Source of the DNA: Verrucomicrobiaceae bacterium
Lineage (GTDB): Bacteria; Verrucomicrobiota; Verrucomicrobiia; Verrucomicrobiales; Verrucomicrobiaceae
Length of the DNA stretch: 64,000 nucleotides
NCBI GenBank assembly: GCA_027486585.1
Contig: JAIXOU010000139.1
Location: 1-64,000, forward strand
Direction: 5' to 3'
Below, in pieces: positions 20,104 to 45,374 of this stretch. Below the pieces are notes generated by a model. That model worked only from the letters and a program-made list of their open reading frames with translations. It was not told where the DNA came from and searched no databases. The translations under genes and the position numbers were made by a program. Position 1 is the first letter of the stretch; each line of letters starts with the position of its first letter.

Positions 20104-21177
20104 CTACTGCTGTTGTTGTTCCTGCTGCTGCTGAAAGCGGATTTCTGCCTGTAAATCCACTGGGGGATGATACATGTAGTTCGTATAAAGATGGGCTCCG
20201 ATGGAGGCAATCTCAACCTGAGATGCGTCGAGAAACTCGTGAAGACCATTGTCGAAGATGGATTGCACGTCCACTTTGGAGAGACGGCTCAGGAAGGCTT
20301 CAAATCGTTGGATAGGCTCAGCATTGACCGCAGCTGTTGGATCGCCTTCGGTGATTAGCTGAATGTATTCGTTCATCTGCTCAGCACAGAATTTCATGGA
20401 ACGTGGGAAGCTGTCATCAAAGATGAGAAACTCGACGACCTTTTTAAAGAGCACGTCGGCTACGTAGTAGCGGCGATAAGGTTCTACCGCACTGGCAGAT
20501 CTCAAGACCGCATGCCACTGAGCGGTATCGACCGCCCCGCCCACATCTGAAGCCTTCGGCAGAAGGATGTGGTATTTAATATCGAGCAGACGCGTGATCT
20601 GATCGGCGCGCTCAAGGTATTTGCCAAATTGAATGAACTCAAAGCCTTCGACCCGTGAAAAAGTACTCACGGTGATGCCCTGGAAGAGATGGGAGAAGCG
20701 CTTGATCTGATCGTAAAAGGCGCTGGCTCCTTCAGCCCAGATCTTTTTGGCATCGGCCCCTTGGATGAAGTGGTAAGCGTCATTGAGCACCTCCCACATC
20801 TCACTGGAAATTTGATCCCGTACTTGCCGTGCATTTTCACGGGCATTCGAAATACAAGAGATCAGCGAATTGGGATTCTCTAGTCGGAAGGTGAGAAAGT
20901 CAGTGGCGCTTTCATTGTCGGCAGATTCATAAAGTTTGAAGAACTGCTCTTCATCGCCTGAAGAACGCAGCACGGGGAGCCAATGTTCTTTGAGCGTCTC
21001 GGCGCTGACCTGGCCAAAATCGAGCAGGATCTGTAAGTTGACATCGATGAGACGTGCTTGGTTTTCAGCGCGTTCAAGGTAGCGGCTCATCCAGTAAAGG
21101 CTGCCGGCTACTCGGGAAAGCATGACATTGGCCTGTTTTGACCGGGCGACTTCTTCGCGGGCGGTGGTGGTGGACAT
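20104..21177 (-). CDS. Alpha-E domain protein (DUF403)
   Basis: 357 aa, all helical, with the family signature near the start: MLSRVAGSLYWMSRYLERAEN (LSRVA..LYWM.RY.ERAE). The domain spans almost the whole protein; the tail is Gln-rich. DUF403 proteins are nearly always paired with a circularly permuted ATP-grasp protein, as here, and often a transglutaminase-like protease, which is absent. The pair is suspected of peptide or amide synthesis and breakdown, but the substrate is unknown. The ATP-grasp gene lies 52 bases upstream on the same strand. Confidence 0.92.
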   Translation of the reverse strand: MSTTTAREEVARSKQANVMLSRVAGSLYWMSRYLERAENQARLIDVNLQILLDFGQVSAETLKEHWLPVLRSSGDEEQFFKLYESADNESATDFLTFRLENPNSLISCISNARENARQVRDQISSEMWEVLNDAYHFIQGADAKKIWAEGASAFYDQIKRFSHLFQGITVSTFSRVEGFEFIQFGKYLERADQITRLLDIKYHILLPKASDVGGAVDTAQWHAVLRSASAVEPYRRYYVADVLFKKVVEFLIFDDSFPRSMKFCAEQMNEYIQLITEGDPTAAVNAEPIQRFEAFLSRLSKVDVQSIFDNGLHEFLDASQVEIASIGAHLYTNYMYHPPVDLQAEIRFQQQQEQQQQ

Positions 21178-21229
21178 GATGGGAAGGGGTAAGGTGAAAG
21201 GTGTGGGAAAGGGGAACAGTCTGAGCGGA

Positions 21230-22672
21230 TTACTTTTTCAGAACCCAAGTATCTTTTGATCCACCACCTTGAGAGCTATTGACCACGAGGCTGCCTTTTC
21301 TCAGCGCCACGCGGGTGAGGCCCCCTGGTGTGACGACGGTTTTTTCTCCACAGAGGATGTAGGGTCGGAGATCGACATGGCGACCGCCAAAATCGTCTCC
21401 AGTCCAGGTCGGATGACGACTAAGCGAGATCGGATGCTGGGCGATGAAGTTACGTGGGTTATCTTCAATCAACTTGCGGAACTCTTCGATCTCGGCCTTT
21501 GCAGCCCATGGCCCCATCAACATGCCGTAGCCACCTGCTTCGTTCGCGGATTTAACGACGAGCTTGTTGAGGTTCTCTAAGATGAAAGTGCAGTCTGATG
21601 GCTCAGACGCCAGGAAGGTGTCCACATTCGGCAAAATGGGTTCTTCACCGAGGTAATACTTGATCATCTTGGGCACGAAGTAATAGACGACTTTGTCATC
21701 GGCCACCCCTGTTCCGATGGAGTTGGCGAGGCTGACATTGCCTGCTCGGTAGGCGTTGACTAAACCTGGAACACCGAGCAACGAGTCGGCTCGAAATACA
21801 GATGGATCCAGGAAGTCATCGTCAATTCTGCGGTAGATGACATCCACTTTAACCAGACCAGATGTGGTGCGCATGTAAACTTTAAAGTCACGAACGACTA
21901 GGTCACGTCCTTCGACAATTGGAATGCCCATTTGTCTAGCCAGGAAGGCATGCTCAAAATAGGCGCTATTATAAACACCTGGAGTCAAGAGCACAGCATT
22001 GGGCGCATTATTGCCGTTGAACTTGGCCGGAGCGCAGTATTGAAGTACCTTGAGAAGTTCAGCGGGATATTCATCTACCGGATGAACGCCGCTGGCCTGG
22101 AAGAGTTCAGGGAAAGTGCGCTTGAGAGCATTACGGTTTTCCAGCATGTAGCTGGCACCGGATGGGCAGCGAAGATTGTCTTCCAGAACCAGGTATCGGC
22201 CCTCATGATCACGAATTAAATCACTGCCGCAGATGTGCACATAAATATCCTTGGGCACCTCACAATTCATGAATTCGCGGCGAAAATGTTTCGCGCTCAG
22301 CAAGTATTGGGGCGGGATGACACGATCTTTGATGATTTTTTGCTCGTGATAAATGTCATGGAGAAAAAGATTCAGGGCCGTGATGCGCTGAATGAGGCCT
22401 TTTTCCACCACATCCCATTCCTCAGCAGAAATCACACGCGGAACGCAATCAAAGGGGAAAATCCGCTCAGTTCCCTGGTCGTCATTATAAACCGTGAAGG
22501 TCACCCCTCCACGCATGAAGGCGTTTTCCACCGCTGTTTGTTTGTTACTGAACTCGGCAGCCGAGACCGCATTCAGGGCGTCGCTAACACCTTGATAATG
22601 TGGGCGTGGAGTGCCGTTACTAGTGAACATCTCATCAAAGAAGTTCTCCGTTTGGTAGTTGTCGAAAAGCAT
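21230..22672 (-). CDS. Circularly permuted type 2 ATP-grasp protein
   Basis: 480 aa, matching the DUF404/DUF407 region: [18 protein letters not shown] near the N-terminus, [43 protein letters not shown] (family motif) and the C-terminal [15 protein letters not shown], a glycine-rich ATP-binding part. Members are thought to form an amide or peptide bond using ATP, with the alpha-E protein as partner. First gene of the minus-strand series. The upstream 336-bp gap to the divergent carbamoyltransferase presumably holds its promoter. Confidence 0.93.
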
Positions 22673-24758: not shown

Positions 24759-25101
24759 CCCACAGATTTCAGAGAGAGGATCCGCAGATTTCACAGATCA
24801 CGCAGATTACTTTTAGATGATGTTGAAGGGCTGCCTGTTATTTCTACACAAGTTCATCCCTCTAAATCTTTGAAATCTGAGCAATCGGTGGACCCAAGAA
24901 CCTATGCCAGGTGCTTGGTTATCTCAAAGGCACTGGCTTCCAAACGGGCCTTTTTCTCAGCTTCGGTACTCCCAGTCTCTTTCAAAAACGCTTCGTTCAT
25001 TCCTCCAAATGGCTTCCCGAAGCCGCCACCGAAAATCCGTCCTAATAATCTGAGTCATCTGTAAAATCGGTGAATAAATCGTCTGAACGTCATCCGTGGA
25101 C
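24759..25101. repeat. Intergenic region with short CAGATTTCA repeats
   Basis: CAGATTTCA occurs at 24763-24771 and 24785-24793, related CAGATT copies follow near 24803, and an inverted copy TGAAATCTG lies at 24871-24879; AATCTGAGTCATCTG near 25047 looks like a further degenerate copy. A minus-strand frame of 32 codons (ATG 25000 to TAG 24902) is rich in Lys, Glu and Ala, but too short to claim as a gene. No promoter for rmlA was identified with confidence. Confidence 0.5.
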
Positions 25102-25974
25102 ATGAAGGGTATTGTCTTAGCAGGAGGTGCTGGCTCTCGCTTGTATCCATTGACGCAAGTCGCAAGCAAGCAACTTCAGCCTGTTTACGATAAGCCCATG
25201 GTCTATTATCCGCTGACCGTTTTAATTGCTGCGGGTATCAGTCAGATTTGTTTGATATCGACCCCTCATGACCTGCCAAGATTTCAGCAACTGCTCGGTG
25301 ACGGTAATCAGTGGGGCATCTCCATCGAGTATCGTGAGCAAGAGCGCCCAGCGGGTATTGCACAGGCTTTTTTGATCGCCGAATCCTTCATTGGAAATGA
25401 CAACGTTACTTTGATTTTAGGTGATAACATTTTTCTAGGAGGTGACGCTTTTCCGCGAGCCCTCTCTGAGTTTCGCAGCGGCGCGTCCATCTTCGCCTAT
25501 CACGTCAATGATCCCCAACGCTACGGTGTAGTGGAGTTTGATGCTCAGGGGCAGGCGATCTCTCTGGAGGAAAAACCCACTCAACCTCGCAGCAATTTTG
25601 CCGTTCCGGGCGTCTATCTTTACGATAACGAAGTGGTCGAGATGGCAAGACAATTGAAGCCTTCGATCCGAGGAGAGTTAGAGATCACTGACATCAATAA
25701 GGACTATCTTAATCGTGGGAAATTACGCGTCATTCGCATGAGTCGCGGAAGCGTTTGGTTAGATTCCGGCACAAGCAGCAGCCTGCATGATGCCTCAGCT
25801 TATGTTCAGACGATTGAAAAGCGACAGGGGGTGAAATTAGGTTGTCCCGAGGAGGCGGCTTTGCATCGGGGATTCATGACCCCTCAGCAGTTTGTCAGCT
25901 TGGTCAACACCATGCCTTGCTGTGAATATCGCGACTATCTTCAGTCCATTTCAGGCAGTCAGTTCTTTGGTTAA
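25102..25974 (+). CDS. rmlA: Glucose-1-phosphate thymidylyltransferase
   Basis: First step of dTDP-rhamnose synthesis: dTTP + glucose-1-phosphate to dTDP-glucose. The start MKGIVLAGGAGSRLYPLT has the nucleotide-binding loop, and DPQRYGVVEFD, EEKPTQPRSNFAVPGVYLYD and RGSVWLDSGTSSSL are the usual RmlA motifs. 290 aa is the normal size. ATG 25102 gives the canonical N-terminus; an in-frame GTG at 25096 adds two residues. The reductase-like gene follows 22 bases later. Confidence 0.95.
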   Translation: MKGIVLAGGAGSRLYPLTQVASKQLQPVYDKPMVYYPLTVLIAAGISQICLISTPHDLPRFQQLLGDGNQWGISIEYREQERPAGIAQAFLIAESFIGNDNVTLILGDNIFLGGDAFPRALSEFRSGASIFAYHVNDPQRYGVVEFDAQGQAISLEEKPTQPRSNFAVPGVYLYDNEVVEMARQLKPSIRGELEITDINKDYLNRGKLRVIRMSRGSVWLDSGTSSSLHDASAYVQTIEKRQGVKLGCPEEAALHRGFMTPQQFVSLVNTMPCCEYRDYLQSISGSQFFG

Positions 25975-25996: not shown

Positions 25997-26947
25997 ATGG
26001 TTATCTTAATTGGCGGCAGCGGATACATGGGTAGCGCATTTGCGGCTGAGTTACATAAGCGGCAGATCCCTCACCAAATAGTATCTAGATGCACGACAGA
26101 CTACACTAACTTTGAATCGTTGTGCCGATTGCTGGAAAAAGCGAAGCCCTCATTCCTGATCAATGCCGCTGGAGCTGTCGGTAAACCGAATGTGGATGCT
26201 TGTGAGCTAGCTCGCTCAGAAGCCGTTCTTGGCAATGTTGTGTTACCTCAACTTATCTCCAACGCTTGTGACATCAGTGGGGTTCCATGGGCTCAAGTAT
26301 CTTCAGGATGTATTTATTCAGGAGCGAAAATTCTGAGTGACGGAAAGGTCCGCATCGAAAAAGACTTAACGCTGCCCCATGTTCGCCAAATTGTAGATGA
26401 TTCTCCAAGTTCAGTGCTCGGATATAGCGAAGATGATAGCCCTAATTTTTCTTTTCGTGAATCACCCTGTAGCTTTTACAGTGGAACAAAAGCCCTGGGC
26501 GAAGAGGTTATCTCAAAGGCTAAGCAAACTTATATTTGGAGGCTGAGAATACCTTTCGATGAGTATGATAATGATCGCAATTATCTTACCAAACTTCAGC
26601 GCTATGATCGTGTCTATGACAACGTGAATTCAATTTCTCATCGTCAAGATTTTGTGCACGCTTGTTTGGATCTTTGGGTGAGTGGTGCAAATTTTGGGAC
26701 TTATAATGTCACGAATCCTGGATTCGTGACTTCAAGGCAAGTGGTGGAAATGATTCAAAGAAACTTCAAGGTCAGGCGTGCTTTTAAGTTTTGGAAAGAT
26801 GATGAAGAGTTTTATCGGCTCGCCGCCAGCGCTCCTCGTTCAAATTGCGTTTTGGACACGACAAAATTATTGGCCACAGGCGTGAAGATGCGGCCTGTTG
26901 AAGAGGCCATGGAAGAATCTCTTCTGCGATGGAGCTCTGCCGTATGA
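25997..26947 (+). CDS. Bifunctional 3,5-epimerase/4-reductase-like protein (UER1/NRS-ER type)
   Basis: 316 aa, extended SDR fold: GGSGYMG at 6-12 and the catalytic Tyr161-x3-Lys165 pair (SFYSGTKA). Other segments follow the plant UER1/NRS-ER domain and not ordinary RmlD: NAAGAVGKPNVDACE (56-70), SSGCIYSG, EDDSPNF before the Tyr, RLRIPF..YDNDRNYLTKL (182-200), YNVTNPGFVT (236-245) and APRSN (280-283). These enzymes epimerise and reduce 4-keto-6-deoxyglucose nucleotides to L-rhamnose. Placed between rmlA and rmlB with no rmlC or rmlD in the window, it probably replaces both. The start is ATG 25997; an earlier in-frame start lies inside rmlA. It overlaps rmlB by ATGA. The function is inference from memory of plant sequences; a search was not possible. 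Confidence 0.8.
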   Translation: MVILIGGSGYMGSAFAAELHKRQIPHQIVSRCTTDYTNFESLCRLLEKAKPSFLINAAGAVGKPNVDACELARSEAVLGNVVLPQLISNACDISGVPWAQVSSGCIYSGAKILSDGKVRIEKDLTLPHVRQIVDDSPSSVLGYSEDDSPNFSFRESPCSFYSGTKALGEEVISKAKQTYIWRLRIPFDEYDNDRNYLTKLQRYDRVYDNVNSISHRQDFVHACLDLWVSGANFGTYNVTNPGFVTSRQVVEMIQRNFKVRRAFKFWKDDEEFYRLAASAPRSNCVLDTTKLLATGVKMRPVEEAMEESLLRWSSAV

Positions 26948-27972
26948 TCACACATCCAATGAATCTTTTGATCACAGGCGGCGGCGGTTTTATTGGTTCG
27001 AATCTTATCCGTCATATCATCGACAAGCCTGAAGTCGGTCAGCTGATCAATCTCGATGCCCTTACCTATGCGGGTCATCTGGAGAACCTCGAAGGCATCC
27101 ACGGCAAGCATCCGCGCTACATCTTTGAAAAAGTCGATCTACGAGAAAAATCCGAAGTCCTGCGAGTGATTCATCAGCACGACATCACCCACGTCATGCA
27201 TCTGGCGGCTGAAACGCATGTGGACCGCAGCATCGCCGGCCCAGGCGATTTCATCACCACCAACATCAATGGCACGTTTCATCTTCTCGAAGCTTGCCGC
27301 ATTCATTGGCTAGGAACAACCAAGAACCGGTTCCTCCACGTCTCAACGGATGAAGTCTATGGCTCTCTGGGTGACTCCGGCTCCTTCACTGAATCATCGC
27401 CTTACGCGCCAAACTCGCCTTATGCGGCAAGTAAGGCCGCCAGTGATATGCTTGTACGTTCTTACCATCACACGTATGGTTTGCCGACGGTCATCACGCA
27501 TTGCTCGAATAATCACGGACCTTACCAGTATCCTGAAAAGCTGATTCCTGTGGTGATCCAAAGCATTCTAGCTCGGCATGAAATCCCGGTTTATGGAGAC
27601 GGTCTTAATGTGCGAGATTGGCTGCCTGTCGATGACCATTGCGCTGCACTTTGGCTCGCTCTGAATCAGGGTAGAGCAGGGCAGACATACAATGTTGGGG
27701 GACTCAATGAAATGGCTAATCTTACGCTGGTGGAGCTTATCTGTGATCTAGTTGATGAGATGCAGCCTACGCTTGGTGGCCATTCACGCGATTTGATCAC
27801 CTTTGTGCCAGATCGCCTTGGTCATGACCGACGTTATGCCATTGATGCATCAAAAATGCTGCATGAATTAGGCTGGAAGCCTGAACGAAAACCTGAGTCC
27901 GCTCTGCGTTCTACCGTTCAATGGTACCTAGAAAATCAAGGCTGGGTTGCTTCAATTAAAGTTAGCCTCTGA
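26944..27972 (+). CDS. rmlB: dTDP-glucose 4,6-dehydratase
   Basis: Converts dTDP-glucose to dTDP-4-keto-6-deoxyglucose with bound NAD. GGGGFIGSN near the N-terminus binds NAD; HLAAETHVDRSI, STDEVYGSLG (Thr/Asp/Glu catalytic residues) and SPYAASKAASD (Tyr-x3-Lys) are the usual RmlB motifs. 342 aa is typical. ATG 26944 overlaps the upstream stop as ATGA, so coupling is likely; ATG 26959 is an alternative. Its product should feed the adjacent epimerase/reductase-like protein. Confidence 0.95.
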   Translation: MITHPMNLLITGGGGFIGSNLIRHIIDKPEVGQLINLDALTYAGHLENLEGIHGKHPRYIFEKVDLREKSEVLRVIHQHDITHVMHLAAETHVDRSIAGPGDFITTNINGTFHLLEACRIHWLGTTKNRFLHVSTDEVYGSLGDSGSFTESSPYAPNSPYAASKAASDMLVRSYHHTYGLPTVITHCSNNHGPYQYPEKLIPVVIQSILARHEIPVYGDGLNVRDWLPVDDHCAALWLALNQGRAGQTYNVGGLNEMANLTLVELICDLVDEMQPTLGGHSRDLITFVPDRLGHDRRYAIDASKMLHELGWKPERKPESALRSTVQWYLENQGWVASIKVSL

Positions 27973-29517: not shown

Positions 29518-30471
29518 ATGAGCGACTCTGCTGACAATTCATTTCGTGTTTCGGTCATCATTTGTGCCCACCAGCCCGACAGCCGTCACCTCAGCAGGAC
29601 CTTGGCAGCTTTGCAGGAACAAACTTTATCGCCTGATGTCTGGGAACTTCTGGTGGTGGATAACCAATCTGCCCCTCCTCTTAAGTTGGATGAATTGCTG
29701 GCTTGGCATCCGCATGCAAAATGCATTCGCGAAGAAAACCTCGGACTCACTCCCGCTCGCTGCTGCGGGATTTATCACACATCAGCTGATCTCATTGTCT
29801 TCGTGGATGTCGATAATGTGCTGCACTCTGATTACTTGGCTAAAGCCTTGGAGATCGCTTCGCAGCACCCAAAGGTCGGAGTTTGGAGCGGGCAGGCGCA
29901 TCCTGAGTTTGAAGAGTCTCCAGCAGATTGGACGCGTCCCTATTGGGCCATGTTGGCCATTCGTGAGTTCAGTCATGATAAGATCATGATGGCCTCTGAT
30001 CGTTCACAGTCTTTACCACATGGCGCTGGGATGTGTCTCCGGCGTGAAGTTGCCTCTGCCTATATCAACGAAATGGTGAATGCGAATTGGCGTCTTCTAC
30101 TTGAGCGAAAAGGCCAGAGCCTTATGTCGGGTGGCGATTCAGATCTGGCCCTGCTTTCGATGCGACATGGCTGGGGAATCGGTCAGTTCATGCAGCTTCA
30201 TCTTGATCATCTTATTCCACCAAACCGTCTAACTGAGTCATACCTAATTAGGCTTAAAAAAGCCATGGCTGCATCGGGTGTTGTGCTTGATCATTTTCAT
30301 CGAGAACCTGCTCCAGTGCGCCCTTCTATAATTAGATGTTTACTGCGCCAATTGAAAATCTTGATCTGTTTTGACGGTGTTGAAAGACGCATGCAAATGG
30401 CCACATTCAATGGGGAACAGCATGGCTGGGACATGGTGAAATACCAATCGCAGATTGTATGTGAGTCATGA
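29518..30471 (+). CDS. Family 2 glycosyltransferase, paralogue of 49187 gene
   Basis: 317 aa. SVIICAHQPDSRHL opens the GT-A fold. The metal motif reads FVDVDNVL (DVD) where the paralogue at 49187 has FVDDDNIL, so the first of three Asp is kept but the middle one is Val. The two share long stretches (LGLTPAR, WSGQ, LAIREF, CVRRE or CLRRE), and seem to descend from one gene. ATG 29518 follows the upstream stop by one base; ends ATGA over the next gene. Confidence 0.85.
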   Translation: MSDSADNSFRVSVIICAHQPDSRHLSRTLAALQEQTLSPDVWELLVVDNQSAPPLKLDELLAWHPHAKCIREENLGLTPARCCGIYHTSADLIVFVDVDNVLHSDYLAKALEIASQHPKVGVWSGQAHPEFEESPADWTRPYWAMLAIREFSHDKIMMASDRSQSLPHGAGMCLRREVASAYINEMVNANWRLLLERKGQSLMSGGDSDLALLSMRHGWGIGQFMQLHLDHLIPPNRLTESYLIRLKKAMAASGVVLDHFHREPAPVRPSIIRCLLRQLKILICFDGVERRMQMATFNGEQHGWDMVKYQSQIVCES

Positions 30472-31706
30472 GTGATCACGCAATCAAAGTAGAATCACTT
30501 GGTAAATGCTATCACATACGAAAGCAAAGAGAAGGACACTATCTTACTTTGCGAGATCGGCTGACTACTTTATTCAAGCGCGGTTCGGTAGATCAACAAA
30601 GAGAAGACTTTTGGGCTTTGAAGGATGTCTCTTTCGATTTGCCCAAGGGCGAAGTTCTTGGCGTCATTGGACGGAACGGATCAGGGAAATCGACTCTTCT
30701 GAAAATGATTTCCAGAATCACTGAACCAACAAAAGGCCGAATCACGGTTCATGGGCGGGTGTCATGTTTGCTTGAGGTTGGGACTGGATTTCATCCAGAA
30801 CTCACAGGAAGAGAAAATATCTATCTCAATGGAGCCATCTTGGGCATGAGAAAGAACGAGGTTGCTGCATCCTTCGACGAGATCGTTGCGTTTGCCGAGG
30901 TTGAGCAATTTTTAGACACTCCGGTTAAAAGGTATAGCAGTGGCATGTATGTGCGATTGGCTTTCGCCGTCGCCGCGCATCTGGAACCGGAGATTTTGAT
31001 AGTGGATGAAGTTCTTGCAGTGGGGGATGCAGCTTTTCAAAAAAAATGTCTGGGAAAGATGCATGACGTTGCGCAGCAAAAGGGACGGACCGTTCTGTTT
31101 GTTAGTCACAATTTAAGCTCGGTAAGACAACTCACGACACGATGTCTCGTTCTTGAAAAGGGACAGTTAGTCTATCAAGGGAGCCCGGAGAATGCCATTA
31201 GTCGATATGTGCAAAATTTGGAACTGAGCGGCGATCATATCGAGAATCAATCAAGAGAATACGAGTGCACCGGTGATGCACGATTTGTTGATTTGAGATT
31301 TAAGACATCTGCAGCAGTGTTTCCCTCAGGTGTTCCCATTGAATTCATTGCCGTGATTTCAATTTTTAAAGCGGTAAATTCAGCCTTTATCAGTCTCACG
31401 GTTTTAACTCAGGAATCAAATCCAGTTGGTAGCGGATTCAGCGCAGCTTCCATTCATTCGACATCCTCTGGAAGGAGGACTCTGTCTGTCTGCATTCCTC
31501 CTATCACGCTCGCTCCTGGAAGGTACTACTGTATCGTGGCATTAAGTTTCTATTCTGGCGGTGTTCTAGTCAATATAGATGCAGTCTCCAAAGTGTTGCA
31601 CTTTGAAATTTTAGCCGACGATTCAACCAATAGCATTCTTTTACAATGGAACTCCAGTTGGGGTCCACTGAAGATGCCTCTTTTGGAGACTAGTTATCTA
31701 CAATGA
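30468..31706 (+). CDS. Wzt-like O-antigen ABC transporter ATPase (copy 1)
   Basis: 412 aa. Residues 1-250 are an ABC ATPase: Walker A GRNGSGKST (68-76), signature [11 protein letters not shown], Walker [14 protein letters not shown]. The remaining about 150 residues form a beta-rich domain like the carbohydrate-binding C-terminal domain of Wzt, which recognises the cap on the non-reducing end of an O-antigen. The partner is probably the permease at 36867. Followed by a TylF-like methyltransferase (overlap of 4 bases), a candidate cap-forming enzyme. Confidence 0.92.
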   Translation: MSDHAIKVESLGKCYHIRKQREGHYLTLRDRLTTLFKRGSVDQQREDFWALKDVSFDLPKGEVLGVIGRNGSGKSTLLKMISRITEPTKGRITVHGRVSCLLEVGTGFHPELTGRENIYLNGAILGMRKNEVAASFDEIVAFAEVEQFLDTPVKRYSSGMYVRLAFAVAAHLEPEILIVDEVLAVGDAAFQKKCLGKMHDVAQQKGRTVLFVSHNLSSVRQLTTRCLVLEKGQLVYQGSPENAISRYVQNLELSGDHIENQSREYECTGDARFVDLRFKTSAAVFPSGVPIEFIAVISIFKAVNSAFISLTVLTQESNPVGSGFSAASIHSTSSGRRTLSVCIPPITLAPGRYYCIVALSFYSGGVLVNIDAVSKVLHFEILADDSTNSILLQWNSSWGPLKMPLLETSYLQ

Positions 31707-36866: not shown

Positions 36867-37688
36867 ATGTCTCAAATCATCATCGAAGCCGGTCGCGCAG
36901 AGAAAAACTACTGGCGTGATCTCTGGCGTTACCGTGAACTCTTTCAGGTGCTCGCTTGGCGTGACATTTCTGTCCGTTATAAGCAGACTGTCATCGGGGT
37001 CGCTTGGGCACTCATCCGGCCCTTTCTCACCATGGTTGTGTTTACGATCATTTTCGGAAAGGTCGCCAAGCTACCGTCTGAAGGCAGCGCGCCTTACGCC
37101 CTTCTTGTCTTCGCAGGCATGCTTCCATGGACCTTTTTTTCCACGGCCCTCGCTGAGGCTTCCAACAGTCTGATTGGCAATGCCAACCTGATCAGCAAAG
37201 TCTATTTCCCCCGACTCATTGTGCCCACGGCTACAGTCGTTGTCGCTCTGGTGGACTTTCTCATCAGCTTCACCGTCCTCGCCGCCATGATGGTTTGGTA
37301 TCAGTTTCTGCCCGGATGGCAGATTCTGCTTTTGCCAGCCTTCATCCTCTTGGCTTTTTTAGCCTCCCTCGGACCTGGACTCTGGATCACGGCGCTGAAT
37401 GTTAAATACCGCGACTTTCGTTACATCATCCCCTTTATGGTTCAGTTCGGTCTTTATGTTTCGCCAGTGGGTTTTAGCTCCAGCGTGGTTTCTGAAAAAT
37501 GGCGTCTGCTCTATTCCCTGAACCCCATGGTCGGTGTCATCGACGGCTTCCGCTGGTGCCTGCTGCGCGGTGAATCCGCCATCTATTGGCCAGGCTTCTA
37601 CATGAGTCTCGGTGTCACCGTCTTCTTCCTCTGGCTCGGCATTCGTCAGTTTCGCAAAATGGAAAAGACCTTCGCGGACTTAATCTAA
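36867..37688 (+). CDS. Wzm-like ABC-2 permease for glycan export
   Basis: 273 aa with six hydrophobic helices, typical of the O-antigen permease (ABC-2 family) that passes undecaprenyl-linked polymer through the inner membrane. LAWRDISVRYKQTVIGVAWALIRP before the first helix is the family motif. It is the only such permease in the window, against three Wzt-like ATPases (30468, 39820 and 44124). Start ATG 36867; the 178 bases upstream are the four-helix gene tail and repeats. Confidence 0.92.
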   Translation: MSQIIIEAGRAEKNYWRDLWRYRELFQVLAWRDISVRYKQTVIGVAWALIRPFLTMVVFTIIFGKVAKLPSEGSAPYALLVFAGMLPWTFFSTALAEASNSLIGNANLISKVYFPRLIVPTATVVVALVDFLISFTVLAAMMVWYQFLPGWQILLLPAFILLAFLASLGPGLWITALNVKYRDFRYIIPFMVQFGLYVSPVGFSSSVVSEKWRLLYSLNPMVGVIDGFRWCLLRGESAIYWPGFYMSLGVTVFFLWLGIRQFRKMEKTFADLI

Positions 37689-39819: not shown

Positions 39820-41103
39820 ATGTCTGAACCTATCATCAAAGTAGAAGGACTTTCGAAGCGCTATATTCTTGGGCATCAAGCTGCGCAAGAGCGCTACCAA
39901 TCTCTGCGTGAAGCCCTTTCTAGGACTCTTCGTTCTACCCTGCGAACGACACGAGACATGCTTAGTGGAAGACAACTTATCCAAGGCGATGATCCTGAAG
40001 AATTTTGGGCACTCAAAGATGTATCATTCGAGGTGTGCAAGGGGGAGATTCTTGGTGTCATTGGCAGAAACGGAGCCGGAAAGTCAACACTTTTGAAGAT
40101 TCTCAGCAGGATCACCGAACCAACTTCTGGACGGGTTACAATACATGGACGAGTGGCGTCCCTTCTGGAAGTGGGCACAGGTTTTCATCCCGAATTAAGT
40201 GGTCGCGAAAACATCTATCTCAATGGAGCTATTTTAGGAATGTCCCGAACTGAGATTCGGAGCAAGTTTGAGCAAATTGTCAGTTTTGCTGAGGTCGAGC
40301 GATTCATTGATACTCCCGTTAAACGTTACAGCAGTGGCATGTATGTGCGCCTTGCCTTCGCTGTGGCAGCGCATCTGGAACCAGAGATCTTGATCATTGA
40401 TGAAGTTCTTGCTGTAGGAGATATCGCATTTCAGAAGCGGTGCTTGGGTAAGATAAACGATATAGCTCGCAATGGTCGCACGATCATTTTTGTGAGTCAT
40501 GACATTGCTGCAGTGAGAAAACTTACTGTTAATGCCCTCTATCTTGAGCGGGGATCAGTAAAAATGAAAGCACGCACGGAGGAGGTCACGACGGCTTATC
40601 TTAAGCCACAGAGTGGAGATCAAAACTCTCCAGAACCTATTGCAAACTATCGACGACCATATCGAAATGAAGGGGTGCTTGAAATCGTTGGTGTGACAAT
40701 TAATGGCCAGCCTTTTGGTCATGTTCAACTCATGATAGGTGAGAAGCTATGTATACGAATCCATTTGCATATTTCTAAGGAAGTGGAAAGCGGGCTCGCC
40801 TCTATTAATATTCTAGATAGCGAATTGCGTGTCGTTTCTTCCATCCTTTCATCAGACGTGGGTTACTATCTGAATGCTAAAGTAGGTGGCAGGACCATTA
40901 ATCTTTCTCTGGATCAGTTGAGTTTGGCTCCTGGTATATACTTCCTTTCTCTTGGATTTAATCAGACTGTGAGTACCTTGGGTTGGGATGTCGTAGAAAA
41001 TCTGCCGGGCTTCACCATAGATGGATCTAACAATAAAGCCTGGATGATGCGGCCAGATCGACCGGGTTCAATGTTGATACAGGCGGCAAATTGGAGCGAA
41101 TAA
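39820..41103 (+). CDS. Wzt-like O-antigen ABC transporter ATPase (copy 2)
   Basis: 427 aa. Compared with copy 1 it has an insertion in the N-terminal region (residues about 20-60, with [15 protein letters not shown]) before Walker [10 protein letters not shown] (82-90). [20 protein letters not shown] is the same as in copies 1 and 3. The C-terminal about 150 residues are beta-rich and different from copies 1 and 3, so it probably binds a different glycan end. Followed by a type 11 methyltransferase. Confidence 0.92.
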
Positions 41104-44041: not shown

Positions 44042-44123
44042 TGGACGTTAGATGTGCAGATGCCACTGCTCGTCAAACCAAACAATCTTTGATTCTACTT
44101 CTCAGGTAATTCGCCGCAATCTA

Positions 44124-45374
44124 ATGGCTACTCCAGTTATCACAGTTGAGCAGTTAAGTAAACGCTACTTTTTAGGTCATCAAGGCCCAAGGGAGAGCTA
44201 TCAATCTCTTCGTGATAGCCTGGTGAAGCAGGGACGGACTTTGGCTCGGAAGAGCATGGAGTTGGTTCGTGGAAAGCAAGTTATTCAGGGAGACCGAGTT
44301 GAGGAGTTTTGGGCGCTCAAGGATGTCTGTTTTGAAGTGCAGCAAGGTGATGTTCTGGGCATCATCGGCAGCAATGGAGCCGGTAAGAGCACGCTACTTA
44401 AACTTTTGAGCCGAATCACTGAGCCGACCAAAGGTCGGATCACGCTTCAGGGCCGTGTTGCTTCCTTGCTTGAGGTTGGCACAGGCTTTCATCCTGAACT
44501 GAGCGGCCGCGAAAACATCTTTCTCAATGGGGCCGTTCTTGGCATGTCGCGCGCAGAAATTCGCTCCAAATTTGATGAGATCGTGGACTTCGCTGACGTG
44601 GAGCGCTTTCTGGACACACCGGTAAAGCGTTACAGCAGCGGCATGTATGTCAGGCTTGCTTTTGCCGTCGCAGCCCACCTTGAACCTGAAGTGCTCGTGG
44701 TCGATGAAGTTCTGGCTGTGGGAGATGCTGAGTTTCAAAAGAAGTGCATGGGCAAAATGGGTGAGGTTGCCAAAGGCGGTCGCACGGTTTTGTTTGTGAG
44801 TCATAACTTAGGAGCCGTTGTCGGCTTGTGTTCGCGCTGCCTACTGATGGATCACGGATCTCTCATTTTGGATTCTAGTCCAGCTGAGTGCGTGGCAGCC
44901 CATTTGAATCACGCCCAAAGCCAATCGGATCAATGGGTTCGTCCTTCATCACGCGAAGCACCCGTTTTGGGTTTTCGGGAAATCAAAATCAACTTGGTGG
45001 GAGAGCAGCCTGATCTTATCTTAGAGATTGAATGTGCTTTCACTTCCCGAGCTTCAGACCATCGGGACGCTATGGTAGCCTTCGACATCAGTCAGCTTTC
45101 GGGTGGGGTGCTCATGCAGGCATTGCCTCATCCTCAGGGATTTCTAACCTCAAAACACACGGAACAGATCCAACGGTTCGCGATTCATTTGCCTCCCTTA
45201 ATACCTGGCTCCTACAGCTTGACAGCTTGGATTGGGCCAAACAACTTAGAATCCTATGATATGGTGCGTGATTGCGTCTCATTTGAGGTCGCGCACTCTC
45301 CTACACCTGGTAGAACTTTTCTTCACACTCCTGATCACGGCTACATTGCACCAAAAACTACATGGTTGGCTTAA
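44124..45374 (+). CDS. Wzt-like O-antigen ABC transporter ATPase (copy 3)
   Basis: 416 aa. Same layout as copy 2, with the N-terminal insertion, Walker A GSNGAGKST (82-90), signature [11 protein letters not shown], and Walker [14 protein letters not shown]. The C-terminal domain differs again. ATG 44124 is preferred, since the earlier frame (from 44052) does not align with the other copies. Next is a FkbM methyltransferase and an acyltransferase, possible cap-forming enzymes. Confidence 0.92.
   Translation: MATPVITVEQLSKRYFLGHQGPRESYQSLRDSLVKQGRTLARKSMELVRGKQVIQGDRVEEFWALKDVCFEVQQGDVLGIIGSNGAGKSTLLKLLSRITEPTKGRITLQGRVASLLEVGTGFHPELSGRENIFLNGAVLGMSRAEIRSKFDEIVDFADVERFLDTPVKRYSSGMYVRLAFAVAAHLEPEVLVVDEVLAVGDAEFQKKCMGKMGEVAKGGRTVLFVSHNLGAVVGLCSRCLLMDHGSLILDSSPAECVAAHLNHAQSQSDQWVRPSSREAPVLGFREIKINLVGEQPDLILEIECAFTSRASDHRDAMVAFDISQLSGGVLMQALPHPQGFLTSKHTEQIQRFAIHLPPLIPGSYSLTAWIGPNNLESYDMVRDCVSFEVAHSPTPGRTFLHTPDHGYIAPKTTWLA

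Follow-up and report, generated by a model that had tools for sequence, protein, structure and literature searches.

A predicted bifunctional epimerase/reductase gene between rmlA and rmlB in a Verrucomicrobiaceae genome, and exchanges of such genes with rmlC–rmlD

Textbook bacterial rhamnose synthesis is carried out by RmlA, RmlB, RmlC and RmlD. Single proteins that combine the last two activities are found in plants, where NRS/ER (UER1; Arabidopsis structure 4qqr) is a single-domain 3,5-epimerase/4-reductase. According to the accessible parts of PMC6556577 and PMC9741107, bacteria rely on two separate proteins, RmlC and RmlD, and the former paper adds that the plant enzymes favour UDP-sugars and that haptophytes have an RmlCD protein which is a fusion of RmlC and RmlD. 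The mimivirus enzyme L780 (UGER; structure 7jid) accepts UDP and dTDP forms and prefers UDP, has Cys108 and Lys175 as key catalytic residues confirmed by mutagenesis, and is encoded away from its dehydratase R141 (accessible text of PMC9614988).

Four bacterial homologues of the C-terminal domain of plant RHM, all from Verrucomicrobia, were noted in 2011, along with a proposal that an operon of the donor prokaryote may already have combined rmlB with an integrated gene (PMC3220709). These homologues share the phylum and, by description, the family of the gene reported here, but the accessible text does not describe an rmlA/rmlB operon, a function, phage copies or an exchange with rmlCD for them. 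PMC9415975 adds nothing on bacteria in its accessible part, and while the Verrucomicrobia homologues are already known, the open literature searched (PubMed Central titles and abstracts) returned no assayed bacterial or phage member, no rmlA–ER–rmlB operon (ER being the epimerase/reductase gene), no exchange with rmlCD and no phage carriage.

The window gene and its resemblance to NRS/ER enzymes

The window, by which we mean the whole 64,000-nucleotide stretch of DNA analysed, contains three codirectional genes in the order rmlA–ER–rmlB, separated by gaps of 22 and 11 bases:

25096..25974, plus strand: rmlA, glucose-1-phosphate thymidylyltransferase (TIGR01207 413.1 bits against a cut-off of 360.65; PF00483)
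25997..26947, plus strand: predicted bifunctional epimerase/reductase (ER; NRS/ER, UGER family), ATG start, 316 aa plus stop
26309..26311, plus strand: Cys105 codon, predicted epimerase acid/base, aligned with 4qqr Cys115 and L780 Cys108
26477..26491, plus strand: Tyr161 to Lys165 codons, short-chain reductase Tyr-x3-Lys (from alignments)
26591..26593, plus strand: Lys199 codon, aligned with 4qqr Lys183 and L780 Lys175
26959..27972, plus strand: rmlB, dTDP-glucose 4,6-dehydratase (TIGR01181 444.5 bits against a cut-off of 365.1, computed on the longer ORF from 26929)

The rmlA start is a GTG, with the ATG at 25102 as a possible alternative. The rmlB ORF as listed begins at 26929, within the ER gene, and we set the rmlB start at an inner ATG (MNLL), following a relative (G006) whose rmlB begins there. 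The first-pass annotation had proposed a plant-type bifunctional enzyme between rmlA and rmlB in place of rmlC and rmlD, and the position between these two genes is borne out, as both flanking proteins score over the cut-offs of their families. Its statement that the window has no rmlC or rmlD also holds (the PF04321 matches in the window include the ER gene and rmlB, and PF00908 has none in the assembly), and the motifs it had linked to UER1 and NRS/ER are all present in the translation (NAAGAVGKPNVDACE, EDDSPNF before SFYSGTKA, YNVTNPGFVT, and APRSN).

Downstream of the rml set are glycosyltransferase- and ABC-exporter-like genes, as read from their translations. In the same way, ORFs at 30468–31706, 36867–37688, 39820–41103 and 44052–45374 were read as three O-antigen-type ABC ATPase genes and a permease-like gene; the three ATPase genes differ in their C-terminal parts, and there is only one permease-like gene among the ORFs between 18000 and 64000. 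On the minus strand, at 20104–22672, are adjacent genes which we take to resemble those for an alpha-E domain protein and a circularly permuted ATP-grasp protein.

The best Pfam match of the ER protein is RmlD_sub_bind (70 bits) followed by Epimerase (33.1 bits), and the sole NCBIfam match is rmlD (TIGR01214), which at 57.4 bits over residues 2–111 is far under the cut-off of 224.05; no NRS/ER model was among the NCBIfam matches. The RmlC domain (PF00908) is not matched and the protein is made of one SDR domain, which separates it from the haptophyte RmlCD fusion with which it shares the predicted catalysis of both steps by one polypeptide. Best profile hits to RmlD only had been named beforehand as evidence that would count against an NRS/ER assignment, and this is what Pfam (with Epimerase) and NCBIfam returned, but NRS/ER came first among PDB sequences: a phmmer search found 4qqr (5.7e-30), 7jid (2.6e-12) and then an RmlD (9e-5), and a profile built from 18 relatives found 4qqr at 2.8e-51, 7jid at 2.1e-33 and the best RmlD at 6.6e-19. 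The predicted fold gives a similar picture, with an AlphaFold model (mean pLDDT 94.2) for which the best Foldseek matches were 7jid (7.3e-23) and 4qqr (8.5e-22), and for which VIA-align gave Z 34.6 with 7jid (rmsd 1.8 over 278 residues), Z 32.1 with 4qqr (rmsd 1.9 over 268 residues) and Z 29.7 with the best RmlD (rmsd 2.4 over 271 residues). The SDR fold, the Tyr-x3-Lys motif and an N-terminal glycine motif are all present in the alignments and model, and the motifs PNVDxCE, NPG and PRSN are common to the window protein and 4qqr, although identity in the fold alignments is only 27–28% with 4qqr and 20–22% with L780. In a quick tree with RmlD as the outgroup, all of the ER sequences including 4qqr and 7jid were placed on one side of a branch with SH-aLRT 100 and the 13 RmlDs on the other.

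C105 and K199 of the window protein align with C115 and K183 of 4qqr, which we take to be the Arabidopsis catalytic dyad, and with C111 and K178 of the 7jid chain (L780 C108 and K175, with an offset of 3). The Cys is kept in 199 of 201 relatives (the other two have Ser) and the Lys in 198 (three have Arg), and both are found together in 79/79 viral, 35/38 class-sample, 3/3 own or same-genus and 80/81 genome-contig sequences, though the Cys count for the genome contigs is not independent because one of the two patterns used to fetch that set contains this Cys (this does not apply to the viral scan, whose patterns lack the Cys, or to the class sample, for which a profile was used). Of the reductase residues, the Tyr is conserved in 200/201 relatives, and so is the Lys. 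The RmlDs we examined have Tyr at the C105 position in 17/17 cases and Lys at the K199 position in none. Sequence, profile, fold and catalytic residues therefore all bear out the resemblance to UER1 and NRS/ER, and 'plant-type' is sound as a family label but not as a statement of origin, since many Verrucomicrobiota have a member of the family and viral contigs carry it as well.

We considered whether the window protein might be a reductase alone, that is, a divergent RmlD-like 4-reductase whose product is an unepimerised sugar (e.g. dTDP-D-fucose) or which depends on an unrecognised epimerase. This would agree with the Pfam result and with how close the RmlD fold is, and bifunctional activity is itself a prediction for this protein, but the conserved Cys/Lys pair is absent from the RmlDs and, as described below, the gene occupies the place of rmlC and rmlD both and not that of rmlD alone, and we regard this reading as very improbable.

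Exchange of the ER gene and rmlC–rmlD between rmlA and rmlB

Five loci (L251, L293, L307, L309 and L315) have the order rmlA–rmlC–rmlD–rmlB, with rmlA and rmlB 71–75% and 68–71% identical to those of the window and with rmlC–rmlD occupying the position that the ER gene has there. Likewise, in family f17 one locus (L305) has rmlC–rmlD–rmlB–rmlA where its kin have ER–rmlB–rmlA. On a quick tree built from rmlA sequences joined to rmlB (56 rows, 43 with ER and 13 with rmlC–rmlD, or CD), the ER/CD label needs nine changes, at least five of which are forced by starred branches, against a mean of 11.9 for shuffled labels (6 to 8 of 500 shuffles gave nine or fewer). The label is therefore clustered, yet far from a single change. 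For a more careful tree we selected 31 rows, six of them CD, with the quick tree already in view; it needs six changes (bootstrap 5–6; at least three forced), which is the maximum for six CD rows and no fewer than with shuffled labels; here one CD row pairs as sister with one ER row at 100/97. A topology with the five CD loci listed above in a single clade was rejected (AU p 0.0024). It should be noted that many of the inner branches of these rmlA and rmlB trees are weak. Several exchanges of ER and rmlC–rmlD are needed on these trees, and their direction can be read either way. RmlC and RmlD are two unrelated proteins, and this exchange in place is the strongest evidence we have that a single gene covers both functions.

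We consider it highly likely that the window gene encodes a bifunctional dTDP-4-keto-6-deoxyglucose 3,5-epimerase/4-reductase of the NRS/ER type making dTDP-L-rhamnose; from the observed residues, neighbourhood and exchanges we infer both activities as well as the nucleotide and cofactor used and the product's stereochemistry. By family membership, RmlA would make dTDP-glucose and RmlB would convert this to dTDP-4-keto-6-deoxy-glucose. The window protein would then use Cys105 and Lys199 as acid/base to invert C5 and C3, and the same active site would also reduce the 4-keto group with NADPH via Tyr161/Lys165 to give dTDP-L-rhamnose, epimerisation and reduction together amounting to the work of RmlC plus RmlD and to the same overall conversion. 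The glycosyltransferase- and ABC-exporter-like genes downstream suggest a surface polysaccharide as the probable destination of the sugar.

RmlA and Tyr212 of RmlB point to dTDP as the likely carrier, as the first-pass annotation had predicted. Tyr212 aligns with Tyr208 of the Streptomyces venezuelae enzyme 1r66, which stacks on thymine and whose counterpart is His in Trichomonas and other eukaryotes, Gln in mimivirus and Met in Caenorhabditis elegans (accessible text of PMC9741107). There is a slim chance that the window enzyme is bifunctional but has another product or carrier, namely reduction to dTDP-6-deoxy-L-talose or, like the plant and mimivirus enzymes, a preference for UDP, as the stereochemistry of the last step is not readable from sequence and L780 uses both UDP and dTDP forms; what speaks for dTDP-L-rhamnose instead is that the flanking RmlA and RmlB are of the dTDP type and that the gene has the same place as rmlC–rmlD in relatives.

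Distribution of ER, RmlC and RmlD genes

The source assembly (6.5 Mb in 147 contigs, 97.2% complete) has no match to PF00908 or TIGR01221, although at this completeness an rmlC gene could have been missed. It does have an RmlD (G000:C147:118912-119769; TIGR01214 229.7 bits, cut-off 224.05); none of the translations read in 14 kb makes a neighbouring gene rml-like. Complete rmlC and rmlD genes elsewhere in the genome had been put forward as evidence against the bifunctional reading, and of these rmlD is present but rmlC was not found. A second copy of ER, 45% identical to the first, is located at G000:C29:20948-21886 (L105:8949-9923) and keeps the catalytic Cys and Lys, but rmlA and rmlB are absent nearby. 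We note that this copy is close to genes whose translations read as radical-SAM and ATP-grasp proteins.

Amongst 56 genomes of relatives (own included), 21 had a match to the ER protein, but 18 of these were below 31 bits and ER is clear in only three: our own and two (G006, 62% identity, and G011, 61%) which both have the order rmlA–ER–rmlB. PF00908 matches were found in 16 of the 56, with 13 over the cut-off. G011, from the same genus, has two PF00908 genes in addition to rmlA–ER–rmlB, one beside CDP-glucose dehydratase-like and C-methyltransferase-like genes and the other with neither rmlA nor rmlB within 8 kb. The nearest named record among the best 80 of 495 genome-contig relatives is a Verrucomicrobiaceae MAG (L109) with a 92% identical ER in the same gene order.

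We sampled 286 genomes evenly across the class, of which 100 had an ER profile match at 1e-20 and 98 a match over 200 bits. The two dropped were a weak match (G102, 129 bits) and an RmlD adjoining rmlB (G158, 76.8 bits). We fetched 60 stretches and kept 58 after dropping two without ER, these coming from 57 of the 98 ER-positive genomes and having been chosen manually, initially about one from each family and afterwards down the list. The ER gene has rmlA or rmlB as neighbours in 39/58 (both in 34, rmlA only in three and rmlB only in two), the two main orders being ER–rmlB–rmlA (20) and rmlA–ER–rmlB (9), while 19/58 are without either, some of which stop at a contig end. An RmlC-like (>55 bits) or RmlD-like (>85 bits) protein was found in 0/58. 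For the best 80 of the 495 genome-contig relatives the figures were 67 with both neighbours, 11 with rmlA only and two with neither, though these lean to near relatives and the class sample is fairer. For the best 80 of 180 viral relatives they were 38 with both, 17 with rmlA, six with rmlB and 19 with neither, and none of these 160 loci showed an rmlC or rmlD.

A tblastn search of 50,697 GenBank phage records with the ER protein gave no match, and phage carriage therefore rests on IMG/VR contigs. We searched nine neighbours from four such loci: two with the order rmlA–ER–rmlB have on the same stretch a head maturation protease and a PhoH-like protein (L041) or an endonuclease and a dNMP kinase (L066), a third with ER but without rmlA/rmlB has a clamp loader neighbour (L086), one neighbour from L080 gave a match of unknown function, and the remaining three had no match. 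By their translations, L052 and L054 resemble L066.

The presence of RmlC does not differ significantly between genomes with and without ER, either by PF00908 (38/98 vs 87/188, p 0.26) or by TIGR01221 over its cut-off (26/98 vs 60/188, p 0.42), and we therefore rejected plain absence of RmlC as proof of replacement and examined where the RmlC-like genes are located. High-scoring RmlC (≥205 bits) is rarer with ER (5/98 vs 44/188, p 5e-5), a line set post hoc, once the scores were seen to leave a gap from 189.1 to 208.8 bits. The double-positive genomes (35 of 38 used) yielded 37 loci, 33 of which had a recognisable RmlC-like protein, and from 40 of the 87 PF00908-positive genomes without ER we obtained 40 loci, picked by hand in roughly listing order with weak matches skipped; rmlA or rmlB was in the stretch in 3/33 and 19/40, respectively (p 3.5e-4). 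By sequence patterns of our own choosing, CDP-glucose enzyme-like or C-methyltransferase-like genes accompany the RmlC-like gene in 12/33 and 9/40, which suggests that such RmlC-like genes may serve other sugars. Six Verrucomicrobiota loci (L237, L244, L248, L266, L269 and L271) have an RmlC-like gene beside both CDP-glucose dehydratase-like and C-methyltransferase-like genes, and such cases inflate counts of 'rmlC' made with family models.

RmlD over the cut-off is also rarer with ER (16/98 vs 77/188, p 1.8e-5), and in 62 of the 98 ER-positive genomes both RmlC and RmlD fail to reach their cut-offs; because the NCBIfam cut-offs are strict (controls passing were 9/14 for rmlD and 6/14 for rmlC), these counts miss true genes in both groups. 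They bear on the suggestion that the window protein only inverts C3 and C5 and that the C147 RmlD then reduces the product. The assembly does hold an RmlD that could serve, but 82/98 ER-positive genomes are without one over the cut-off (some are just below), the C147 gene stands apart from other rml-like genes, and the reductase Tyr and Lys are almost always kept, all of which make a division of labour of this kind hard to credit. Against the bifunctional reading we count the RmlD over its cut-off, the similar frequency of PF00908 and TIGR01221 matches with and without ER, the PF00908 genes of G011, and three ER-positive genomes (G163, G239 and G290) in which rmlC with rmlA/rmlB coexists with an ER elsewhere, in stretches without rmlA/rmlB that are near contig ends in the latter two; we also count the 19/58 stretches and the second copy of our own genome that are without rmlA/rmlB, and the incomplete assembly.

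Relationship to the eukaryotic enzymes and implications

Within the quick tree, most of the viral ER sequences were placed outside the bacterial rows with four among them, and the plant and mimivirus pair (4qqr and 7jid) sits on a very long branch inside the bacterial rows. We make no claim of an origin of the plant enzyme within Verrucomicrobiota, as a tree grouping all of the prokaryotic and viral ER sequences was 25.8 log units better (AU p 0.89). Tentatively, and with somewhat less than even confidence, we suggest that ER may be an old and mobile prokaryotic and phage enzyme which has repeatedly displaced, or been displaced by, rmlC–rmlD between rmlA and rmlB in Verrucomicrobiota, and that it may represent the prokaryotic side of the family behind eukaryotic NRS/ER and the C-terminal domains of RHM, that is, the 'integrated' donor-operon gene envisaged in the accessible text of PMC3220709.

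If the bifunctional reading is true, a three-gene rhamnose route using an enzyme of the type found in plants and giant viruses would extend across one class of bacteria and phage contigs, and genomes which seem deficient in rmlC and rmlD would be those of rhamnose producers. Annotations of the gene as RmlD or as a generic epimerase would need correcting. The loci described here would also provide a natural series of operons exchanging rmlCD and one gene, and a prokaryotic comparison group with which to test where the eukaryotic rhamnose synthase domain came from.
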